NCBI RefSeq assembly: GCF_000243335.1
Contig: NZ_JH597773.1
Location: forward strand, 3,804,115-3,868,114
DNA from: Leptonema illini DSM 21528
GTDB taxonomy: Bacteria > Spirochaetota > Leptospiria > Leptospirales > Leptonemataceae
Length of the DNA: 64,000 nt
Reading direction: 5' to 3'
Each line of letters opens with the position of its first letter. Positions within the stretch are counted from its first letter, which is position 1. The translations under genes were made by a program, and so were the position numbers. Positions 27,595-59,374 of this stretch are shown piece after piece. The notes beneath the pieces were generated by a model. That model was not told the origin of the DNA. It did no database searches and worked only from the letters and a program-made list of their open reading frames with translations.

Positions 27595-28431
27595 ATGGCC
27601 GATATCAAGGACTTCAACGTCCCCCCCCTTCCTGCCGTTGTTATGAAAGTCATGCAGTACGATCATACTTCGGCCGATGCCTCCGTTCACGACATCGAAA
27701 AGATCGTCGAAGGAGATAAGGGGGTGGCCGCCGAGGTCTTGAGAGTCGCTAACTCCGCCTTTTACGGACGATCAGGGAAGATCAAGATTCTCAAAGATGC
27801 GGTGACCCTGCTCGGTCTGAAGGCCCTGAAGAACCTCGTCATCTTTCTCGGTACAAAAGCCATGAATTCGAGCGTCAAAGATAAGACTCTGCGACGCTAT
27901 GTGAACGAGCTGCCGATCGTCACAGCCCTTCTCGGCAAAGATATCGCGCATGATTTGAAGAAGAACGACATCGGCGAAGAGGTGTTTCTTGCCGGTCTTC
28001 TGCATAAGATCGGCATGAGCATCCTTGCTTTGAATAAATCCGAGCACTATGCGTTTCTTGTGCAACAGGTCGAGCAGAACGGCTTTGATCTGAACGAGAT
28101 GGAGCAGAATTCGTATCAGGTGAGCAACGAAGTCCTCGGTCGCTCGACGGCCGAGAACTGGAAGCTGCCCGACGAGTTCGTGCGATGCGCCGGCATCGGG
28201 CCTCATACGAAGTTAGGCGATCTTCAATCCGACATGGAGCGCATCACCTACGTCGCATCGATCCTATCGATGCAGCTTCTGGGATTGCCCGTCACTCCCT
28301 CCGTCGCCTCGAATGCATCGGCCGTTTATGAATACATGGGCGGAGAAGGCGATCCAGCCGCCGTCTATGCAGGCGGAACGGTATTTGAAACGATCAAGGC
28401 GCATCCGTTTTATCAGATGGCCGTAAACTGA
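27595..28431 (+). CDS. HDOD domain signalling protein
   Basis: A 278-residue HDOD protein (catalytically inactive HD-related output domain). Visible family elements are the N-terminal PPLPAVVMKVMQYDHTSADA, EVLRVANSAFYGRSGKIKILKDAVTLLGLKALKNL, and the degraded HD site AGLLHKIGMSILAL (HK in place of HD). HDOD proteins interact with nucleotidyl cyclases, kinases and phosphodiesterases instead of hydrolysing nucleotides themselves. ATG 27595 opens a gene whose stop is one base from the ATG of the REC-cyclase, so the two are translated together and probably act as a complex. Confidence 0.88.
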   Translation: MADIKDFNVPPLPAVVMKVMQYDHTSADASVHDIEKIVEGDKGVAAEVLRVANSAFYGRSGKIKILKDAVTLLGLKALKNLVIFLGTKAMNSSVKDKTLRRYVNELPIVTALLGKDIAHDLKKNDIGEEVFLAGLLHKIGMSILALNKSEHYAFLVQQVEQNGFDLNEMEQNSYQVSNEVLGRSTAENWKLPDEFVRCAGIGPHTKLGDLQSDMERITYVASILSMQLLGLPVTPSVASNASAVYEYMGGEGDPAAVYAGGTVFETIKAHPFYQMAVN

Positions 28432-28432
28432 A

Positions 28433-29593
28433 ATGTCCACACGTCGTCCGCATCGCATCCTCATCGTCGAGGACGATGAAACGCAGGCGCAGATGCTGCG
28501 GCATTTCATCGCGATGTGGGGATACGAGATTCAAGTGGCGATGACGGGCGAAGACGCCATCAGCGCCCTTGACACCTATCAGCCCGATCTCGTACTGCTC
28601 GATCTCTATCTTCCAGGCATTCCCGGCCTCGACGTATTGAAGCAGATTCGCGAGAAGAGCAAGCTACAGGATATTCCCGTCTTCGTCGTTTCGGCCGATG
28701 ATAGCGAAGAGATTAAGATCGTATCGATGTCGTCGGGAGCGAGCGAATTCTTAAGCAAGCCCGTCGTCATGGCAGATCTTGTGATGAAGATTCAAACGGC
28801 TCTTGAACTGCTTGAATCGCGCCGCACCATCGAAGAGCTGAACCGCAAACTTGAAAAAGAGAAGAAGCGCCTGCTGCGTTATTTTTCAGAAGACCTCGTT
28901 GAAAAGATATTAACCGAAGAGATCCCGGCTGAGTTAGGCGGCGATATCGTTCCCGCATCGGTCATGTTTTTTGACATCAGGGGCTCCACGCCGATGGCCG
29001 AGAAGATGGGCCCGAAAAACTACGCTACCTTTATCAGTGATCTTTTCGCCGACATCATGGATATCATCTTCGCGAACAGAGGATCGGTGAACGAACTTCT
29101 TGGCGACGGTATTCTTGCAACGTTTGGATGCCCCGTTCCCACCGACGACGACGCCTTCAACGCCATCCGCACGGCCGTTGATATTCGCACCTACGTGCAG
29201 AACTTCAACTCCATGGTCGTCGATAAGATCGGATACGGCATCGGCATAGCGACGGGTCGAATCTTCGCCGGCAATATCGGCTCCATTCGCCGCATGAAGT
29301 ATGCCGTGATGGGCGATCCCGTAAACGCGGCGGCCCGCATCCAGGATATGACGAAAGAGCTGAACGCTCCGATACTGTTCGATCATCATTCCTTCCAGCC
29401 GATTCGTAATCGCGTGCGGGCCCATTCGCACGGGCATTTCAAGCTTCGCGGAAAGGAAGAGGTGATCGAGATCCTGAGCCTTGATGAAAGACATCCTTTT
29501 ATTGATAAGAAGCTCGATACCGAAGACGAACCCGCTCCGCAGAGCGGCCTGTTTCAGATGTTTCACGAGCGCGATCGCTTTATAGACGGTTGA
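28433..29593 (+). CDS. REC-class III nucleotidyl cyclase
   Basis: A 386-residue response regulator with a receiver domain (about 8-125; phosphoacceptor D57 in LVLLDLYLPG, VVSADDS, and LSKPV), a coiled-coil linker (about 130-148), and a class III cyclase domain (about 170-355). Both metal-binding aspartates are present (D181 in FFDIRGST and D225 in LLGDGILATFG), and VNAAARIQD carries the transition-state Asn/Arg. Receiver phosphorylation would switch cyclase activity. Whether the product is cAMP or cGMP is not certain from sequence. It is coupled to the HDOD gene by a one-base gap. Confidence 0.9.
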   Translation: MSTRRPHRILIVEDDETQAQMLRHFIAMWGYEIQVAMTGEDAISALDTYQPDLVLLDLYLPGIPGLDVLKQIREKSKLQDIPVFVVSADDSEEIKIVSMSSGASEFLSKPVVMADLVMKIQTALELLESRRTIEELNRKLEKEKKRLLRYFSEDLVEKILTEEIPAELGGDIVPASVMFFDIRGSTPMAEKMGPKNYATFISDLFADIMDIIFANRGSVNELLGDGILATFGCPVPTDDDAFNAIRTAVDIRTYVQNFNSMVVDKIGYGIGIATGRIFAGNIGSIRRMKYAVMGDPVNAAARIQDMTKELNAPILFDHHSFQPIRNRVRAHSHGHFKLRGKEEVIEILSLDERHPFIDKKLDTEDEPAPQSGLFQMFHERDRFIDG

Positions 29594-50302: not shown

Positions 50303-50917
50303 ATGACGCCGGACGAATACAGAAACAAGGTTCTGACGATCAACCGGGGTTTTCAAATGGCCCGGGACATCGAAGAATGCGCCGAGCTTGCGGCGAAAAC
50401 GCCTCTCTACCTGCCAGTGCTGAAGTCCCTTCTCAACGAAGTGCTCGAAAGACAGGACTGGAAGAGTCCGCAGTGCGCTCGAACGCTGCACATCCTCATC
50501 CGCAGCGGAACATCGAGCTCTTTATTCACCGTCTTCGATTTCATCAAACGTATGCCCGAAAGCGTTCCTTTTGCGCTGGTCGAGCTTCTTGGAAACCTGC
50601 TGCCTTCGTATAAGAAGATCGTTCTCGGTCCGGCGAAAGAGCTCTGTGAATTCCCGCAGGGATCGCCGCAGCGAGCGGTGGGCATTCAGACTCTGTGCAA
50701 TCTGCATCTCGAGGAATTGCTGCCGCCCGAAAACCTGAATTACCTGGCGTCGCTTCTGAGCAATTTCGAGGTGGATCCATTCTTTACCGATTATCTTGTC
50801 GATATGGTGCGCAGTACGCGATCCTATCGCATGCGCAACCGAACGCCCGCCCAGGAGGATGCCGTATTTGACGACATCCTTGTCGAGCTGAATCCTGAGA
50901 CGAACGGCGATCGCTGA
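50303..50917 (+). CDS. Hypothetical helical protein
   Basis: A 204-residue soluble protein, all-helical in pattern (VLKSLLNEVLERQDWKSPQCARTLHILIR, AVGIQTLCNLHLEELLPPENLNYLASLLSNF), possibly a HEAT-like solenoid. No family is recognised. It is convergent with, and ends 3 bases from, the stop of the ferredoxin-cyclase-peroxidase gene. Its frame has normal codon use and no overlap with stronger genes. A function link to the fusion protein is possible but unsupported. Confidence 0.6.
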   Translation: MTPDEYRNKVLTINRGFQMARDIEECAELAAKTPLYLPVLKSLLNEVLERQDWKSPQCARTLHILIRSGTSSSLFTVFDFIKRMPESVPFALVELLGNLLPSYKKIVLGPAKELCEFPQGSPQRAVGIQTLCNLHLEELLPPENLNYLASLLSNFEVDPFFTDYLVDMVRSTRSYRMRNRTPAQEDAVFDDILVELNPETNGDR

Positions 50918-50920
50918 TTC

Positions 50921-52537
50921 TCAGGCCATGCGGATCATTTTCAGATAGGCGTTGCGGAAATCGTTAAAGAAGAACTCTTCATCGCCGGCGTATAACTCCA
51001 CAAGCTGCCTCGTCTTCTCGTCCTTTAAGAACTCGCGATCGCTTGCAAGCATGGCAAGGCTGAGCGACATATCGTCGCGAAGAAGCCGCCTGAAATACTC
51101 GTTATCAAAGCGATACGGATTCTCGGTAAACTGGCGACCGTGCGCCTTGCCAAGCGTATGAGCGCCTGTCAGAGCGACCATCTCTTTGCGGTCGAGCCCC
51201 GCTCGTCTGAAGCGGATGAGCAGAGCCGGGAATCCTTCCATCTCTCGCGGTATACCGGGCGATTGAATCGACGGTTCGACGACGCTCTTTTTCTCGATGG
51301 GCAGCTCGATGGGAATGTAGGGGCCGCCTGTTAACTCGACGGCGACGGCTCCGGAAAGATAGATCAGCTCTGACGGCGAAATCGTCGGTAGCTCATGCCT
51401 TGCCACGCCGTCGGCCACCTCGTTAATAAAGGAAATGGCCGGAGCCAGGCCTTCATTATCCTCGTCGGCCAGTAGCTGTTCCATCGCCTCTTCGTCGCTG
51501 AGCGCTTTTGAGAATTCGCCGCGGGTCATCGCCTCATGAAAAGCCAGCCGCAGAATTTTTGGCGTGATGGTTAACGGCATCTTCCCTTTTAAGTACCGGC
51601 GGATAATCATTACGCCGTCGAGCTGGTTCTCGTTACAGGCCGATAGTTCATAGAGCTTCTTGCGCTCAGCCTTGCCCTTGAGGCGTGCGAGAAATACGCG
51701 GCCGACCTTAATCGTATCACAGGCGTTCGTAACGAATTCTTCAGAGGCGAGAATGGAGGCATTGGCCTTCTTCGTCGTGCTTTCAATGCGACTGGCCGTG
51801 TTTACGCCGTCGCCAAGAGCGGTGAATTCGCGGTGTTTGGGATGACCTACTTCGCCGACGACGACCCGGCCGAAATGAAGCCCGATGCCGATGCGGAATT
51901 TTTCGCCGAAATGCTTTTCGACGTATTCGTTAACATCGTGAAGTCCGCGTACCATCTCAAGAGCGGCTCTTGCCGCATTGCGACACTTCTCGGCATCGGG
52001 TTCGCCGTTCAGTCCGAACAGGGCCATGATGCCGTCGCCGATGTACTTGTCGATATGACCGCCGTTGTCGATGATAGCAGACCCCATCTGCTTGAAATAG
52101 CGATTGAGGATGTGAATGATGTCATAGGGTAACTGGCGTTCGGCAAAGGGAGTGAAGTCACGGATATCGCTGAAAAGAATGGCCAGACGCTCTTCATGTC
52201 CACCGGGGCCCGACGTTGAAACGGCGATCTCGGCGTCGGTATCGTCCATGACAAGCCGACGGATGCGAGCATCGCCGCGGATGCGCGCCTGGCAGGCAAG
52301 GCGGATGCCTTCTTCGAAATTCTTCTTTCGTGCGAGCTTCTTTTCTTCATCGGTTTGAGGCTCGAGGTTGTCCATCCCGTCGAGCACCATCACCCGACAC
52401 GTAGAGCAGCGGGCGTTACCCCCGCAGACGTGCATATGCGAGATGCCATTCTTTAGAGAGGCCTCAAGAATCGTGCTCCCACTTTCTGCGGAGAATGCGC
52501 CTTCATGTTCGTAGGTTAAAGTGATTTCATCGGCCAT
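50921..52537 (-). CDS. [2Fe-2S] ferredoxin - class III nucleotidyl cyclase - class I haem peroxidase fusion
   Basis: A 538-residue three-domain protein. (1) Plant-type ferredoxin, about 5-95, with cluster cysteines C38, C44, C47 and C82 (CGGNARCSTC, LACQAR). (2) Class III cyclase, about 112-300, with both metal Asp (D124 in FSDIRDFT, D168 in IGDGIMALFG) and N246/R250 in VNTASR. (3) A class I peroxidase-like domain, about 315-538, resembling ascorbate peroxidase: distal R330, F333 and H334 (LRLAFHEA), SGAVAVELTGGP, proximal H460 in ALTGAHTLGKAH, D478 in RFDNEYFRRLL, and the APX-like tail from 480 onward. The tryptophans of APX/CcP at the distal and proximal sites appear as Phe (F333, F470). 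It is cytoplasmic and overlaps the upstream membrane gene by 11 bases. It is likely a peroxide- or redox-gated second-messenger enzyme, which is inference. Confidence 0.9.
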   Translation of the reverse strand: MADEITLTYEHEGAFSAESGSTILEASLKNGISHMHVCGGNARCSTCRVMVLDGMDNLEPQTDEEKKLARKKNFEEGIRLACQARIRGDARIRRLVMDDTDAEIAVSTSGPGGHEERLAILFSDIRDFTPFAERQLPYDIIHILNRYFKQMGSAIIDNGGHIDKYIGDGIMALFGLNGEPDAEKCRNAARAALEMVRGLHDVNEYVEKHFGEKFRIGIGLHFGRVVVGEVGHPKHREFTALGDGVNTASRIESTTKKANASILASEEFVTNACDTIKVGRVFLARLKGKAERKKLYELSACNENQLDGVMIIRRYLKGKMPLTITPKILRLAFHEAMTRGEFSKALSDEEAMEQLLADEDNEGLAPAISFINEVADGVARHELPTISPSELIYLSGAVAVELTGGPYIPIELPIEKKSVVEPSIQSPGIPREMEGFPALLIRFRRAGLDRKEMVALTGAHTLGKAHGRQFTENPYRFDNEYFRRLLRDDMSLSLAMLASDREFLKDEKTRQLVELYAGDEEFFFNDFRNAYLKMIRMA

Positions 52538-53720
52538 GAGAAAAGACCTCTCGGATAACGGAATAGAGTGCGACGGATTCGCTCAATGTAAAGCCGTACA
52601 GACGATGCGGAAAGGCAAAAAAGCGCTTCAGAGCGAGATCCATCAGCTGCACGGGATTCAGCGTGATGTTGCGTACAAGCGCTCTGTAATCATCGCCGAA
52701 ATAACCGACGGCGGGAACTCCGACATGAGGAGAGAATACAAGGATGGGGGTGTGGTTTCGATCGCCTTTCGACGATGCTGCGAGATTTGAAGAAGAGACG
52801 GAGGCGCCGCCGGCCGTCGATGACGCTATGTCGGAGCGGAATACCGAGAAGCGTCGTTTAATAAAACGTCCCGATATGACGGAAAGTCCTTCATCAAAAA
52901 AGAGCGAGCGAATCGTGGAAAACGTTATCCACCCTGCGATCAAAATGAGAACGGGAAACACAAAAACAGCCGCCAGAATCGGAATCCCCTCAGCGAAGGC
53001 CGTAATCGCCATCGAGGCGATAAAGAGCAGGAACAGCACCGAGAGCGAGCTATGCTTTCGAGCTGCCGGATCTTTAAAGCGAAGCGTGCGCATATCGGGC
53101 GATAGAACGATGCGGCCCTCGGCCTTCAGACGCTGGATAACCCCTTTCAGATCGCCGGCTTGATCGACACGCAGCTCGGCCTGCAACTCCGGGATGGCGT
53201 GAGTGATCCGCAGACGCTCTTCGGGAGACGACGGCTCGGCAGGCGGCGTAAATCCCGATACGGAACAGAGCAGCTGTAGATCGGCGATGGCCTTTTCCTG
53301 TGAGCCATAGCTGGATATATCAAAATCAAGCCCGGCCGGACCGCGAAGATAAACGTAAAAAGGGCCCCGCCTGCGTCTACCCGACGAGCGAATACCGCAC
53401 TCTTTAAAAAAAGAAAGCGGCAGGGTCAGAGGAGGCCCCTTCTTTTCGAGGATGCGAAAGATACTGCGGTCGATCTGAAAGCCCGCAGGCTGAAAGCGGC
53501 CACCCAGTATTAACAGCATGCCGCCGGCTTCGGTGATGGATCCGAAGCCGAGAACCATCCACGAAAGCTTATCGAGCCAGTTTGAAGAAAGCAGCATCAA
53601 GACGCCGAGCGGAAGCAGAAAGCTACCCAGCACGACAAGGGCGATGCCGATTATTCTGCCTCGCTGTTTATAGCGAATAAACAGCGCTCCGTTCGTTTTT
53701 TCGTATACGGCGGGAAACAT
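52527..53720 (-). CDS. Membrane protein of unknown function
   Basis: A 397-residue protein with two N-terminal membrane helices (about 24-43 and 53-73), a cytoplasmic domain (about 80-220) and two more helices (about 228-265), followed by a C-terminal domain. A degenerate copy of the dispersed palindrome encodes HVGVPAVGYF in it. No enzyme motif is recognised. It is in the recG operon run: 11 bases after the leucyl aminopeptidase gene and overlapping the fusion protein by 11 bases, so it may supply the membrane link to the ferredoxin-cyclase-peroxidase. Confidence 0.6.
   Translation of the reverse strand: MFPAVYEKTNGALFIRYKQRGRIIGIALVVLGSFLLPLGVLMLLSSNWLDKLSWMVLGFGSITEAGGMLLILGGRFQPAGFQIDRSIFRILEKKGPPLTLPLSFFKECGIRSSGRRRRGPFYVYLRGPAGLDFDISSYGSQEKAIADLQLLCSVSGFTPPAEPSSPEERLRITHAIPELQAELRVDQAGDLKGVIQRLKAEGRIVLSPDMRTLRFKDPAARKHSSLSVLFLLFIASMAITAFAEGIPILAAVFVFPVLILIAGWITFSTIRSLFFDEGLSVISGRFIKRRFSVFRSDIASSTAGGASVSSSNLAASSKGDRNHTPILVFSPHVGVPAVGYFGDDYRALVRNITLNPVQLMDLALKRFFAFPHRLYGFTLSESVALYSVIREVFSHGR
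52711..52724. repeat. Degenerate copy of the dispersed palindrome
   Basis: GCGGGAACTCCGAC keeps the right arm and centre of the GTCGGAACTCCGAC element; the left arm differs at two positions. It is coding here, so chance or codon constraint cannot be excluded. Confidence 0.35.
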
Positions 53721-55339: not shown

Positions 55340-57190
55340 CTATTTTGAAGCGACGCGAAAGATGCCGTCCCAGGGAACGGGCAGACCTTTCTTGCGATAG
55401 TAGATGATCCTTTTTAGGTAGGCGATGACGGCTCGATCGGTCGGCTCGTCATGATACAGCTTCTTGAAAACACGGTAGGCATCGTCCATTCTGCCGGCTG
55501 CAAAATGCTGCACGCCCATCTCGAAGGCCTCGCGATTCACCCAGCGCACCTTCGGATCGGTCTCCAGCGTCGACGTCGCCGGTGCATCAAGTGCCTCGTA
55601 CACATCGACGCCTTCTTCGCGTCCGACGACGCGTACCCGCCCCATATGGCGGAAGCGGTCGCGCGTTCCCATACGATCCACCGTATCTTCGCTGACGAGC
55701 ACGGTGACGCCGAAGGCCTTGGTCAGCCCTTCGATGCGCGACGATAAATTCACCGTATCGCCGATGACGGTCGTATCCATCCTTTGGTTTTCGCCGATCG
55801 TGCCGAGCATGATCTGTCCGGTGTGGATGCCGATGCCGATGCGCACCGGATACTCGCCCGCCTCTTCGCGGCGATCGTTGAAATCTCGCAGACGGCGACA
55901 TATCTCAAACGCCGCTTCGAGCGCGTCTTCTGGGCGCGCGGGGAAGAGCGCCATGATGCCGTCGCCAATATACTTGTCGATGAAGCCCTGATGTTCGCGC
56001 ACCGCCGGGCCGATACGTTCGAGGTAACCGTTGATAAAGCGGAACGTACCGTCGGGACCGAGACCTTCCGAAAGCGTCGTGAATTTGCGGATGTCAGAGA
56101 ATAGAATCGTCATCTCGGCGCCGGACTGTTCGCCGAGAAAGACCTCGGTGATATCTTCTTTGCCGAGGCGATGCAAGAACTCAAATGGCACAAAACGCCG
56201 GAACGATTCCAGCAGCCGGCTCATGCGACGGTCGTATTCGAGAATCGTATCGGCCATGTTGTTGAAGTTAGCCGAAAGCACGCCGATTTCGTCGGCCGAT
56301 TGCACATGTGAGCGCACGCTGAAATCCTTCTGGCCGAACTGAAGTACGATGCGGTTTAATGCAAGGACAGGCCCTGTAAAAAGGCGCCCCAGCCAGATCG
56401 ATATGGCCGAGGTGATGACGATGGCGAAAATGCCGACAAGAATGGAGGATCGCGTTACCTGACGCAACGCTACCTGCATATTCTCGCTGGAAACGTCGAG
56501 ACCGAGCACGGCGACGGGACGGCCGCTCACGTCGCGAATCGGCGCGTAACCGGTGAAGCTGTAGATCTGATACGCCTCATCGAAGTAGAATTCATCGTCG
56601 ACGGCCGCCTTCATCTCGCGAAGGGCCGTGATAGCGGTCGGCATGGTGCTGATATCGTAGGTCGATCCGAAATGAGAGATCTCTTCGACCTCTTCGCCTC
56701 GTCCGGCCGCCTCTTTTAATTTGAGCACGTCGGCGTCGGCAAGAAATACGGCCTCGGCTTCGTTAATCGATGGAATCCAGATGTAGGCATAGCGGATCAG
56801 CTCAGGCTTTGTATCGCGAATAAAATTCAGTTCTTCGCTCAGTCTTTTATAGTCAGCGCCCTTTTCTATAGAATCAGCATAAGCAAAGGCAGCGTTCGTG
56901 CCGGCAGAAGGATCGGTCGTATCTTTGCCGTCGCCGGTCGCTGATCCGGCATTGGGATTCTGCGCGCGAAGCCTGTCTGCAAGTCTCGCCGCAGTCGTCG
57001 CATCGATCGTTTTCGCGCTGAGCGTGACGACCTGCAAGAGCCGATCGCGGACCTCGATCGTGAATTCGCGTTCAAGAATGCGATAGGAAACGAAGGCCAG
57101 GGTAACGCTGAGAGCGATACTGAGCATGAGAAAGGCGGCCGTAATTTTCAGACGAAGGCTGGAGAGGAATTTCACTTTGATTTCTTCCAT
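55340..57190 (-). CDS. Membrane sensor-HAMP-class III nucleotidyl cyclase
   Basis: A receptor cyclase of about 616 residues. Transmembrane helix 1 lies near residue 15-38, a periplasmic dCache-like sensor (about 40-250) at FTGYAPIRDVSGRPVAVLGLD, helix 2 near 255-275 and a HAMP linker near 275-330. The cyclase domain is near 360-530, with metal Asp in ILFSDIRKFTTL and YIGDGIMALFP, and NLSSRIE for the Asn/Arg pair. A short TPR-like tail follows. An ATG at 57190 is used; a GTG at 57205 is also in frame. An extracellular ligand would regulate nucleotide production. It lies between recG and pepA. Confidence 0.9.
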   Translation of the reverse strand: MEEIKVKFLSSLRLKITAAFLMLSIALSVTLAFVSYRILEREFTIEVRDRLLQVVTLSAKTIDATTAARLADRLRAQNPNAGSATGDGKDTTDPSAGTNAAFAYADSIEKGADYKRLSEELNFIRDTKPELIRYAYIWIPSINEAEAVFLADADVLKLKEAAGRGEEVEEISHFGSTYDISTMPTAITALREMKAAVDDEFYFDEAYQIYSFTGYAPIRDVSGRPVAVLGLDVSSENMQVALRQVTRSSILVGIFAIVITSAISIWLGRLFTGPVLALNRIVLQFGQKDFSVRSHVQSADEIGVLSANFNNMADTILEYDRRMSRLLESFRRFVPFEFLHRLGKEDITEVFLGEQSGAEMTILFSDIRKFTTLSEGLGPDGTFRFINGYLERIGPAVREHQGFIDKYIGDGIMALFPARPEDALEAAFEICRRLRDFNDRREEAGEYPVRIGIGIHTGQIMLGTIGENQRMDTTVIGDTVNLSSRIEGLTKAFGVTVLVSEDTVDRMGTRDRFRHMGRVRVVGREEGVDVYEALDAPATSTLETDPKVRWVNREAFEMGVQHFAAGRMDDAYRVFKKLYHDEPTDRAVIAYLKRIIYYRKKGLPVPWDGIFRVASK

Positions 57191-57298
57191 AAAGCGAAGG
57201 ACCACGTTACGAACGGCCCCTTGCGCGTATGCCGAAAACAGCGCCTTACACGGCTCTGTTTACTGCGCAATATGACGGTATCGATGAGAAGAATCCGA

Positions 57299-59374
57299 TC
57301 AGTTTGGAAAAACGATGACGCCTTCTTCGAAGCGATGACGGATGGCCTGCACGGCGGCCTCGGTCAGATCGCCGCCGGTGCGGGCATCCTCATACGAAAT
57401 CTCGACAAGAGTGCGATCCTTCACGAAGTCGGCAAGCTTGAAGCCGGGAAGACCATGTTGCTTGAGCCCCAGAAGTTCGCCCGGTCCGCGAAGCCTCAGA
57501 TCGACCTCGGCAAGCGCAAAGCCGTCTTCGCTATCGACCAGGGCCTGCAGGCGTTCGCGGGCGGAATCGGTCGTGCTATCCGACATGAGAACGCAGAAGG
57601 ACTCTTCGCTTCCGCGGCCCACACGTCCGCGAAGCTGATGCAGCTGCGAGATACCGAAGCGATCGGCATGCTCGATAACCATGATCGTCGCGTTGGGCAC
57701 GTCTACTCCGACCTCGATGACGGTCGTGCTGACGAGGATCTGCACGCGTCCGGCGCGAAACTCGTTCATCACGCGCTCGCGATCAGGCCCTTTCATCTTG
57801 CCGTGCAGAAGCTCGACCTTGAATTCAGGAAAGATCGCCGTGCGCAGCTCTTCGCAGGCGTCTGTGGCGGCCCGCAGATCGAGCTTCTCGCTTTCGTCGA
57901 TGACGGGAAAGACGATGTAGCACTGACGTCCCTTCGAGACATGATTGCGGATGGACTGATACATACCCTTGCGGCGCTCTTCGGTCAGCCACATCGTCTT
58001 GATGGGCTTGCGTCCGGCGGGCTTTTCTTTCAATAAAACGGGCTCAAGATCGGCGAAGACGGTTAAACATAGCGATCGCGGAATCGGAGTGGCCGTCATG
58101 GCGATCAGATCGGGGTTCTTGCCTTTACGGCGCAGAAGCTCTCGCTGCTCCACTCCGAAGCGATGCTGTTCGTCGATGATGACGAGGCCGAGGCTTTCAA
58201 ATTCGACGCTCGGTTCGATCAGGCTGTGTGTGCCGATGATGAGGTTGGCGTCGCCTCGCTTGATGCGGTCGATCGTCAGCTCTCGGCTTTTCTTCGTGTC
58301 GGCCGCCGTCAGGATCTCCATATGCACGCCCGGAAGCATGCCGGGCAGCGTCGACAGCGTACGAAAGTGCTGTCGTGCGAGAATCTCAGTCGGAGCCATC
58401 AGCGCCACCTGACAGTTGTTCTCGATGTAATGCAGGGCGAGCGCGAAGGCCACAAGCGTCTTGCCCGAGCCGACGTCCCCCTGTAAAAGATACGCCGCCA
58501 TCGAATCGCGCTGGCATCCGGTCACGATCGTCTCGATGGCTTTTTTCTGCGCTGCGGTTAACTCGAACGGCAGGTTGAGGATGAGCTGCTGGAACAGGGC
58601 GCTCTTGCCGTAAGGCAGGGGCCAGAGCTCGCGGGTGAAGCGACGGCGCAGCTCCTGTTTGCGATGCATCAGCGCTCCGAAAAGAAAGAGCTCTTCGTAT
58701 TTCAGATGCCGTATCGCCTCGGCTAACGATTCTTCGGATTCCGGAAAATGAATCTGCTCAAGCGCCCATCGTCGCCCCTGAAATCCGTGCTTCTTGCGGA
58801 TGGATTCGGGAAAAAGTTCGGGTACGTCGAAAAGCGTCGGCGCTTGAAACGCTGCATCGATGAGACGACGCATTCCGCGGCTGTCGAGCGACGCCTTCTT
58901 CAACCGATCGTTACCCGGATAAAGCGGCACGATGCGGCCGGAGTGAATCGCCCCTTCCATATCGGCGGAGTCGAGCGTTTCAAGCTCCGGATGCACCATC
59001 TGAAATCCGCCGCCGAATTTCTCAAGGCGACCGGACACGGCGAGATAGGCGTCGGCCTTCAGAGCATAACGGTAGAAGTTCACGCCGTGAAAGAATACAA
59101 GCGTCAGCGGATGCCCCTGTAACGTACGCACCTGCGCCATCAGACGCGAACGCTTGCCATGTGCGAGAAAGCTTGACTTTACCTGCACCACAAGCGTCGC
59201 CGGACCTTCTTCAAGAAAGACCATCTCGCGCACGGACCGATCAAGATATCGTCGCGGCAGATAATAGAGAAGATCTTCAACGGTGGCGATGGCCTCTTGC
59301 AGCAGGGCCTTTTTTTTCGCTTCTCCGACTCCTTTTACAAGATCTACCGGTACTTCAGAGAAGGAGCGGGGCAT
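57299..59374 (-). CDS. recG: ATP-dependent DNA helicase RecG
   Basis: Superfamily 2 helicase that remodels stalled replication forks and Holliday junctions. The wedge/OB region (about 1-190; EVPVDLVKGVGEAKKKAL and RSRLMAQVRTL) precedes the helicase core: Walker A GDVGSGKT (299-306), DEQHRFGVEQR (DExH box), MTATPIPRSL (motif III), and STTVIEVGVDVPNA plus QLHQLRGRVGRG in the second RecA lobe. At 691 residues it is a standard length. It starts the five-gene minus-strand run towards the ferredoxin-cyclase-peroxidase gene. Confidence 0.95.
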   Translation of the reverse strand: MPRSFSEVPVDLVKGVGEAKKKALLQEAIATVEDLLYYLPRRYLDRSVREMVFLEEGPATLVVQVKSSFLAHGKRSRLMAQVRTLQGHPLTLVFFHGVNFYRYALKADAYLAVSGRLEKFGGGFQMVHPELETLDSADMEGAIHSGRIVPLYPGNDRLKKASLDSRGMRRLIDAAFQAPTLFDVPELFPESIRKKHGFQGRRWALEQIHFPESEESLAEAIRHLKYEELFLFGALMHRKQELRRRFTRELWPLPYGKSALFQQLILNLPFELTAAQKKAIETIVTGCQRDSMAAYLLQGDVGSGKTLVAFALALHYIENNCQVALMAPTEILARQHFRTLSTLPGMLPGVHMEILTAADTKKSRELTIDRIKRGDANLIIGTHSLIEPSVEFESLGLVIIDEQHRFGVEQRELLRRKGKNPDLIAMTATPIPRSLCLTVFADLEPVLLKEKPAGRKPIKTMWLTEERRKGMYQSIRNHVSKGRQCYIVFPVIDESEKLDLRAATDACEELRTAIFPEFKVELLHGKMKGPDRERVMNEFRAGRVQILVSTTVIEVGVDVPNATIMVIEHADRFGISQLHQLRGRVGRGSEESFCVLMSDSTTDSARERLQALVDSEDGFALAEVDLRLRGPGELLGLKQHGLPGFKLADFVKDRTLVEISYEDARTGGDLTEAAVQAIRHRFEEGVIVFPN

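Follow-up and report, generated by a model that had tools for sequence, protein, structure and literature searches.

A conserved ferredoxin–class III cyclase–haem peroxidase fusion in Leptonema illini is a candidate redox-gated adenylate cyclase

Ferredoxin-bearing class IIIb adenylate cyclases with cytochrome-b-like anchors have already been described (cluster 1, e.g. Rhodopseudomonas palustris Q132R4; PMC4821796), and PMC10463352, citing Wissig 2019, reports that CyaC of Sinorhizobium meliloti, a dihaem-b protein, responds to respiratory redox state. A 64,000-nt stretch of the Leptonema illini DSM 21528 genome (GCF_000243335.1, contig NZ_JH597773.1, positions 3,804,115 to 3,868,114; hereafter the window) encodes a protein, P0001, that falls within a broad group of ferredoxin-linked class III (IIIb-like) adenylate cyclases, in which a four-cysteine Fer2 domain lies N-terminal to the cyclase. 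Like the cluster 1 proteins of PMC4821796, it carries a ferredoxin immediately ahead of a class IIIb cyclase, together with a redox-type partner, but its chain lacks their six-transmembrane dihaem anchor (Fer2 begins at residue 15 and a membrane gene is separate) and its partner is a C-terminal haem peroxidase. Plasmid-borne, mostly rhizobial ferredoxin-cyclases match residues 2-306 of P0001 with 37-42% identity; among the plasmid sequences none covered 80% of the query and none matched the peroxidase domain. No description of a protein combining ferredoxin, cyclase and haem peroxidase was found in the open-access literature. An initial reading of the DNA, made from its letters and open reading frames (the sequence-only reading), had held that no protein of this kind was described, which stands, as far as that literature goes, for the peroxidase fusion but not for ferredoxin cyclases (PMC4821796) or for the redox-responsive CyaC (PMC10463352). 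The three-part protein is real and conserved, and apparently undescribed.

The gene and its neighbours are arranged as follows:

50303..50917, plus strand: convergent gene next to P0001, 204 aa, family not assigned
50921..52537, minus strand: whole P0001 gene (ferredoxin-cyclase-peroxidase), a single 538-aa frame
52527..53720, minus strand: membrane protein gene, 397 aa, without a Pfam family, overlapping P0001
53732-55324, minus strand: M17 aminopeptidase, in the same collinear run
55340..57205, minus strand: HAMP-linked membrane class III cyclase, the second cyclase of the P0001 operon
57299-59374, minus strand: recG, in a collinear operon with P0001

Frame inspection placed the start ATG at 52537, just downstream of a Shine-Dalgarno-like AGAGG, and the end of the stop codon at 50921. 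The frame carries Fer2, Guanylate_cyc and haem peroxidase domains, all above curated cut-offs, as expected from the sequence-only reading, and every residue that this reading had singled out (C38, C44, C47, C82, D124, D168, R330, F333, H334, H460 and D478) was found in place. Its account of the surroundings was also borne out: recG, the HAMP-linked cyclase, the aminopeptidase, the membrane gene and P0001 are collinear with short gaps, P0001 standing at the end of this run, and the membrane gene directly upstream overlaps P0001 by 11 bases. The window additionally encodes a response-regulator-linked class III cyclase (28427-29590, plus strand). Genome-wide, there are 23 cyclase places and 26 matches to cNMP-binding domains. 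A search of 48 class genomes, that of the window among them, yielded intact full-length homologues in eight other genomes (41-46% aligned identity); these come from three other genera and align end to end with P0001.

The N-terminal part of P0001 comprises two domains and the segment that joins them:

52280..52495, minus strand: [2Fe-2S] ferredoxin, Fer2 PF00111, residues 15-86 (Pfam 2.4e-11)
52193..52279, minus strand: ferredoxin-cyclase connector, residues 87-115, containing RIRRLVMDDTD, a candidate transducer segment
51725..52192, minus strand: class III nucleotidyl cyclase, Guanylate_cyc PF00211, residues 116-271 (Pfam 2.9e-22)

In a PDB sequence search, the ferredoxin was nearest to the ISC/adrenodoxin type, and the best relatives of the N-terminal part included class III cyclases. 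The cluster cysteines C38, C44, C47 and C82 are invariant, both in the nine full-length homologues and in all 35 members of the wider ferredoxin-cyclase family. Connector residues 91-102 scored 0.66 for conservation across 29 soluble family members, versus 0.67 for both domains; because the first half of the connector is thus conserved as strongly as the domains that flank it, it is a candidate transducer. The cyclase has a complete catalytic set (D124, D168, K164, T239, N246 and R250), of which the metal ligands D124 and D168 and also N246 are invariant in all nine intact fusion homologues, while K164 is retained in eight of nine and position 239 is Thr in eight and Ser in one. In one homologue, L011 (genome G014), Gln replaces Lys164 and Lys replaces Arg250, so this cyclase, in a protein that is otherwise intact, may be weak or altered. 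Lys164 and Thr239 form the ATP-selecting purine pair of the CyaC type, so cAMP is the expected product. The sequence-only reading had proposed a cAMP/cGMP switch; the pair narrows the likely product to cAMP.

A ferredoxin-cyclase of some kind is encoded in 31 of the 48 class genomes. Among 35 members scanned, all of which have Fer2 and the cyclase, nine carry a peroxidase, 12 an NAD/FAD reductase, four a YceI domain and six a membrane anchor, and some consist of the core without any partner. The reductase and YceI partners are C-terminal, in the same place as the peroxidase, and the anchor is N-terminal. Reductase-type members have an NAD-binding module and, in most cases, the FNR-type motifs RxFS and GIG(I/V)TP; these ferredoxin-cyclase-flavin reductase proteins (L020-L027 and L031-L034) come from 12 genomes, and G009 is the only genome that holds both the flavin reductase and the peroxidase forms. 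They resemble a BenC-type dioxygenase reductase with a cyclase inserted between the ferredoxin and the flavin domain, and P0001 differs from BenC-type reductases in having a peroxidase where the flavin/NAD domain stands. The YceI fusions (L036-L039) occur in four genomes, which is unexpected on a presumably cytosolic cyclase. YceI is an isoprenoid-binding fold that is usually periplasmic and is not itself a redox enzyme. The six anchored members, which form one separate clade, begin with a hydrophobic region of about 250 residues and several helices. Their domain order is like that of the cytochrome-b-like-anchored ferredoxin cyclases of PMC4821796; Pfam and PDB sequence searches gave no match between these six anchors and cytochrome b. 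Since most of the exchanged partners handle electrons, the shared input is plausibly redox, an argument that YceI keeps from being airtight. Overall, the pattern suggests a family of redox switches that convert the redox state of the cell into a cAMP signal.

The reading that we favour, with roughly even confidence, is that P0001 could be a soluble, redox-gated class III adenylate cyclase whose peroxide input arrives through the haem domain and sets the redox state of the ferredoxin. The ferredoxin, joined to the cyclase by the short conserved connector, would act as a redox switch upon it, and the C-terminal class I-like haem peroxidase would be the input. Haem would react with H2O2, the oxidised haem would draw electrons from the ferredoxin, and the altered state of the cluster would change the cyclase dimer and hence the level of cAMP, which the many cNMP-binding proteins of the cell would detect. 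Across the family, the partner would set the state of the ferredoxin: a flavin reductase would reduce it, and a peroxidase supplied with H2O2 would oxidise it. What we infer in this scheme is that the protein binds haem and a cluster, that peroxide is its signal, that electrons flow from ferredoxin to haem, and in which direction the cyclase responds.

The features of the C-terminal part on which the peroxide input depends are listed here:

50984..51571, minus strand: haem peroxidase PF00141, residues 323-518 (Pfam 4e-29)
51536..51550, minus strand: distal pocket R330-L-A-F333-H334, Phe for the class I Trp; R, F and H invariant in 9/9
51455..51457, minus strand: N361, counterpart of APX Asn71, which hydrogen-bonds to the distal His; invariant in 9/9
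51158..51160, minus strand: H460, predicted proximal haem ligand; invariant in 9/9
51128..51130, minus strand: F470, counterpart by alignment of APX Trp179 and CcP Trp191; radical Trp absent
51104..51106, minus strand: D478, counterpart by alignment of APX Asp208, the proximal Asp

PF00141 matched P0001 with 102.5 bits against a curated cut-off of 27, and the closest PDB entries were cytosolic ascorbate peroxidases (APX; 8ff6 at 6e-29 and 1apx at 1.4e-26), followed by cytochrome c peroxidase (CcP) at 8.5e-16. A profile built from eight homologues reached ascorbate peroxidase at 1.4e-44. Single-sequence AlphaFold models had pLDDT values of 40 and 35, too low for fold comparison. The likeness to ascorbate peroxidase pointed out by the sequence-only reading is upheld by both the best PDB relatives and the aligned residues, and these sequence matches place the domain in the haem peroxidase superfamily, closest to class I. 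With cytosolic APX (1apx, 8ff6) it shares homology over nearly the whole domain, the distal Arg, His and Asn, the proximal His and, in this copy, the Asp, but it differs in having Phe for both the distal and proximal Trp (F333 and F470, the substitutions that the sequence-only reading had reported), in a shortened Arg172 loop and in the fused cyclase. The distal residue is Phe in all nine homologues, and the position of F470 is Phe, Met or Tyr in relatives. The loop preceding the proximal Trp, which bears the ascorbate-binding Arg172 in APX, is six residues shorter in P0001, with Gln at the aligned position. With neither the distal Trp of class I nor the ascorbate site, the domain does not warrant the name ascorbate peroxidase. 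CcP and KatG belong to the same fold family and are more distant in sequence than APX. CcP is a class I peroxidase that is fed electrons by a protein donor; P0001 lacks the CcP radical Trp and, with this usual residue missing, transfer between ferredoxin and haem would take another route.

Position 478 is Asp in four of the nine intact homologues, Asn in one and Ser in four, so the proximal Asp is absent in five. Together with the absence of the class I Trp, this means that some copies may have little peroxidase turnover, or none. It also bears on an alternative that we consider unlikely, though the best of those examined, in which the peroxidase fold would be a haem-based sensor of NO, CO, O2 or haem supply that gates the cyclase without turning over peroxide, the ferredoxin being a second and separate redox input. 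A retained proximal His and distal pocket, accompanied by loss of the class I Trp and, in these five copies, of the proximal Asp, is what such a sensor could look like. However, the distal Arg, His and Asn, which make up the O-O cleavage set, are invariant in 9/9, whereas a pure sensor needs no Arg-His pair, and class II and III peroxidases function with a distal Phe. Of the peroxide or redox gating originally envisaged, redox gating is now better supported, because the same core is fused elsewhere to a flavin reductase, YceI or a membrane anchor, while the uneven retention of the proximal Asp leaves peroxide gating as a proposal.

P0001 is the sole PF00141 protein of its genome, and KatG is absent from nine of the ten genomes that carry the fusion, a small and closely related sample from which we claim no pattern. 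Both observations would suit a ferredoxin-dependent peroxidase whose main job is detoxification and whose cyclase mainly reports turnover or is tuned by it, as would the shortened Arg172 loop, which makes a non-ascorbate donor likely, and the presence of a ferredoxin in the same chain. We nevertheless regard this explanation as quite unlikely. The genome encodes an ordinary, full monofunctional catalase, which means that peroxide scavenging need not fall chiefly to the fusion, and elsewhere in the family the ferredoxin-cyclase occurs with no peroxidase attached. In the closest pair of homologues, L012 and L013, dN/dS was 0.04 for the ferredoxin, 0.028 for the cyclase and 0.067 for the peroxidase, which indicates purifying selection on all three domains and a cyclase conserved at least as well as the peroxidase. 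Synonymous divergence in the same pair was 0.3-0.4 over the ferredoxin-cyclase part (approximately residues 1-300) and 1.4 over the peroxidase part (320-538), a contrast that suggests recombination within the gene.

It is also very unlikely that the peroxidase is a protective or structural add-on, guarding an oxidant-sensitive [2Fe-2S] cluster or aiding dimerisation while some other reductase or membrane protein, perhaps the product of the overlapping gene, supplies the signal. The overlap itself is suggestive, but when the neighbourhoods of P0001 relatives were compared no counterpart of the 397-aa membrane gene was found near any of them. A homologue of the convergent 204-aa gene adjoins the peroxidase fusion in G009 and a peroxidase-less ferredoxin-cyclase in G015, and this neighbour, shared with the window, indicates one locus in two forms, one that includes the peroxidase domain and one that lacks it. 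That the syntenic G015 gene dispenses with the domain would fit an accessory role; if it were only a guard, however, one would not expect a reductase or YceI to take its C-terminal place in sister proteins. No remnant peroxidase was found behind the G015 gene. A Dps-like frame (L018:822-1494) lies there, between the ferredoxin-cyclase and the convergent gene, in the place occupied by the peroxidase domain in the window and G009.

The history of the fusion was examined with a peroxidase tree comprising the fused domains, both KatG domains (N and C) from this phylum and two plant APX. All fused domains fell into a single clade (99/98), which sided with APX, a placement limited to a sample with few APX entries and in which bacterial APX-like proteins were otherwise not represented. 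Within the clade, P0001 grouped with L009-L011, and L014 with L012, L013 and L015, while L016 stood apart; the ferredoxin-cyclase tree showed this same order, and its data did not reject a single origin (p-AU 0.46). The trees fit one fusion event followed by descent and loss. Most of the 48 class genomes lack the peroxidase fusion, a point against the favoured reading, as are the L011 substitutions and the broken G012 copy. In this peroxidase tree the fused clade is distinct from both KatG domains, which rules out a degraded KatG half as the source. Elsewhere in 393 genomes of the phylum, PF00141 was confined to KatG-sized frames and to evident fragments that lay at contig ends or contained stops. 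A contig search beyond the phylum, seeded with exact peptides and hence of low sensitivity, returned only one distant cyclase. An artefact or chance joining through a frameshift, assembly join or annotation error has a negligible probability and is ruled out as the origin of P0001, given eight intact copies in as many genomes and three other genera, 41-46% identical over their full length and with congruent trees, against a single frame-broken copy in G012.

A redox-gated adenylate cyclase with peroxide input thus remains our preferred reading of P0001. We suggest, more tentatively, that it may be a one-chain switch from peroxide to cAMP within a modular family that could take NAD(P)H (through the flavin reductase), quinone or isoprenoid (through YceI or the membrane anchor) or peroxide as its signal by the exchange of one domain. 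If so, this would be, to our knowledge, the first haem peroxidase through which a nucleotide second-messenger pathway receives its input. The family with its exchanged partners would also make the question of how a ferredoxin gates a class III cyclase testable, by means of natural variants in which oxidising, reducing and membrane partners are attached to one core.
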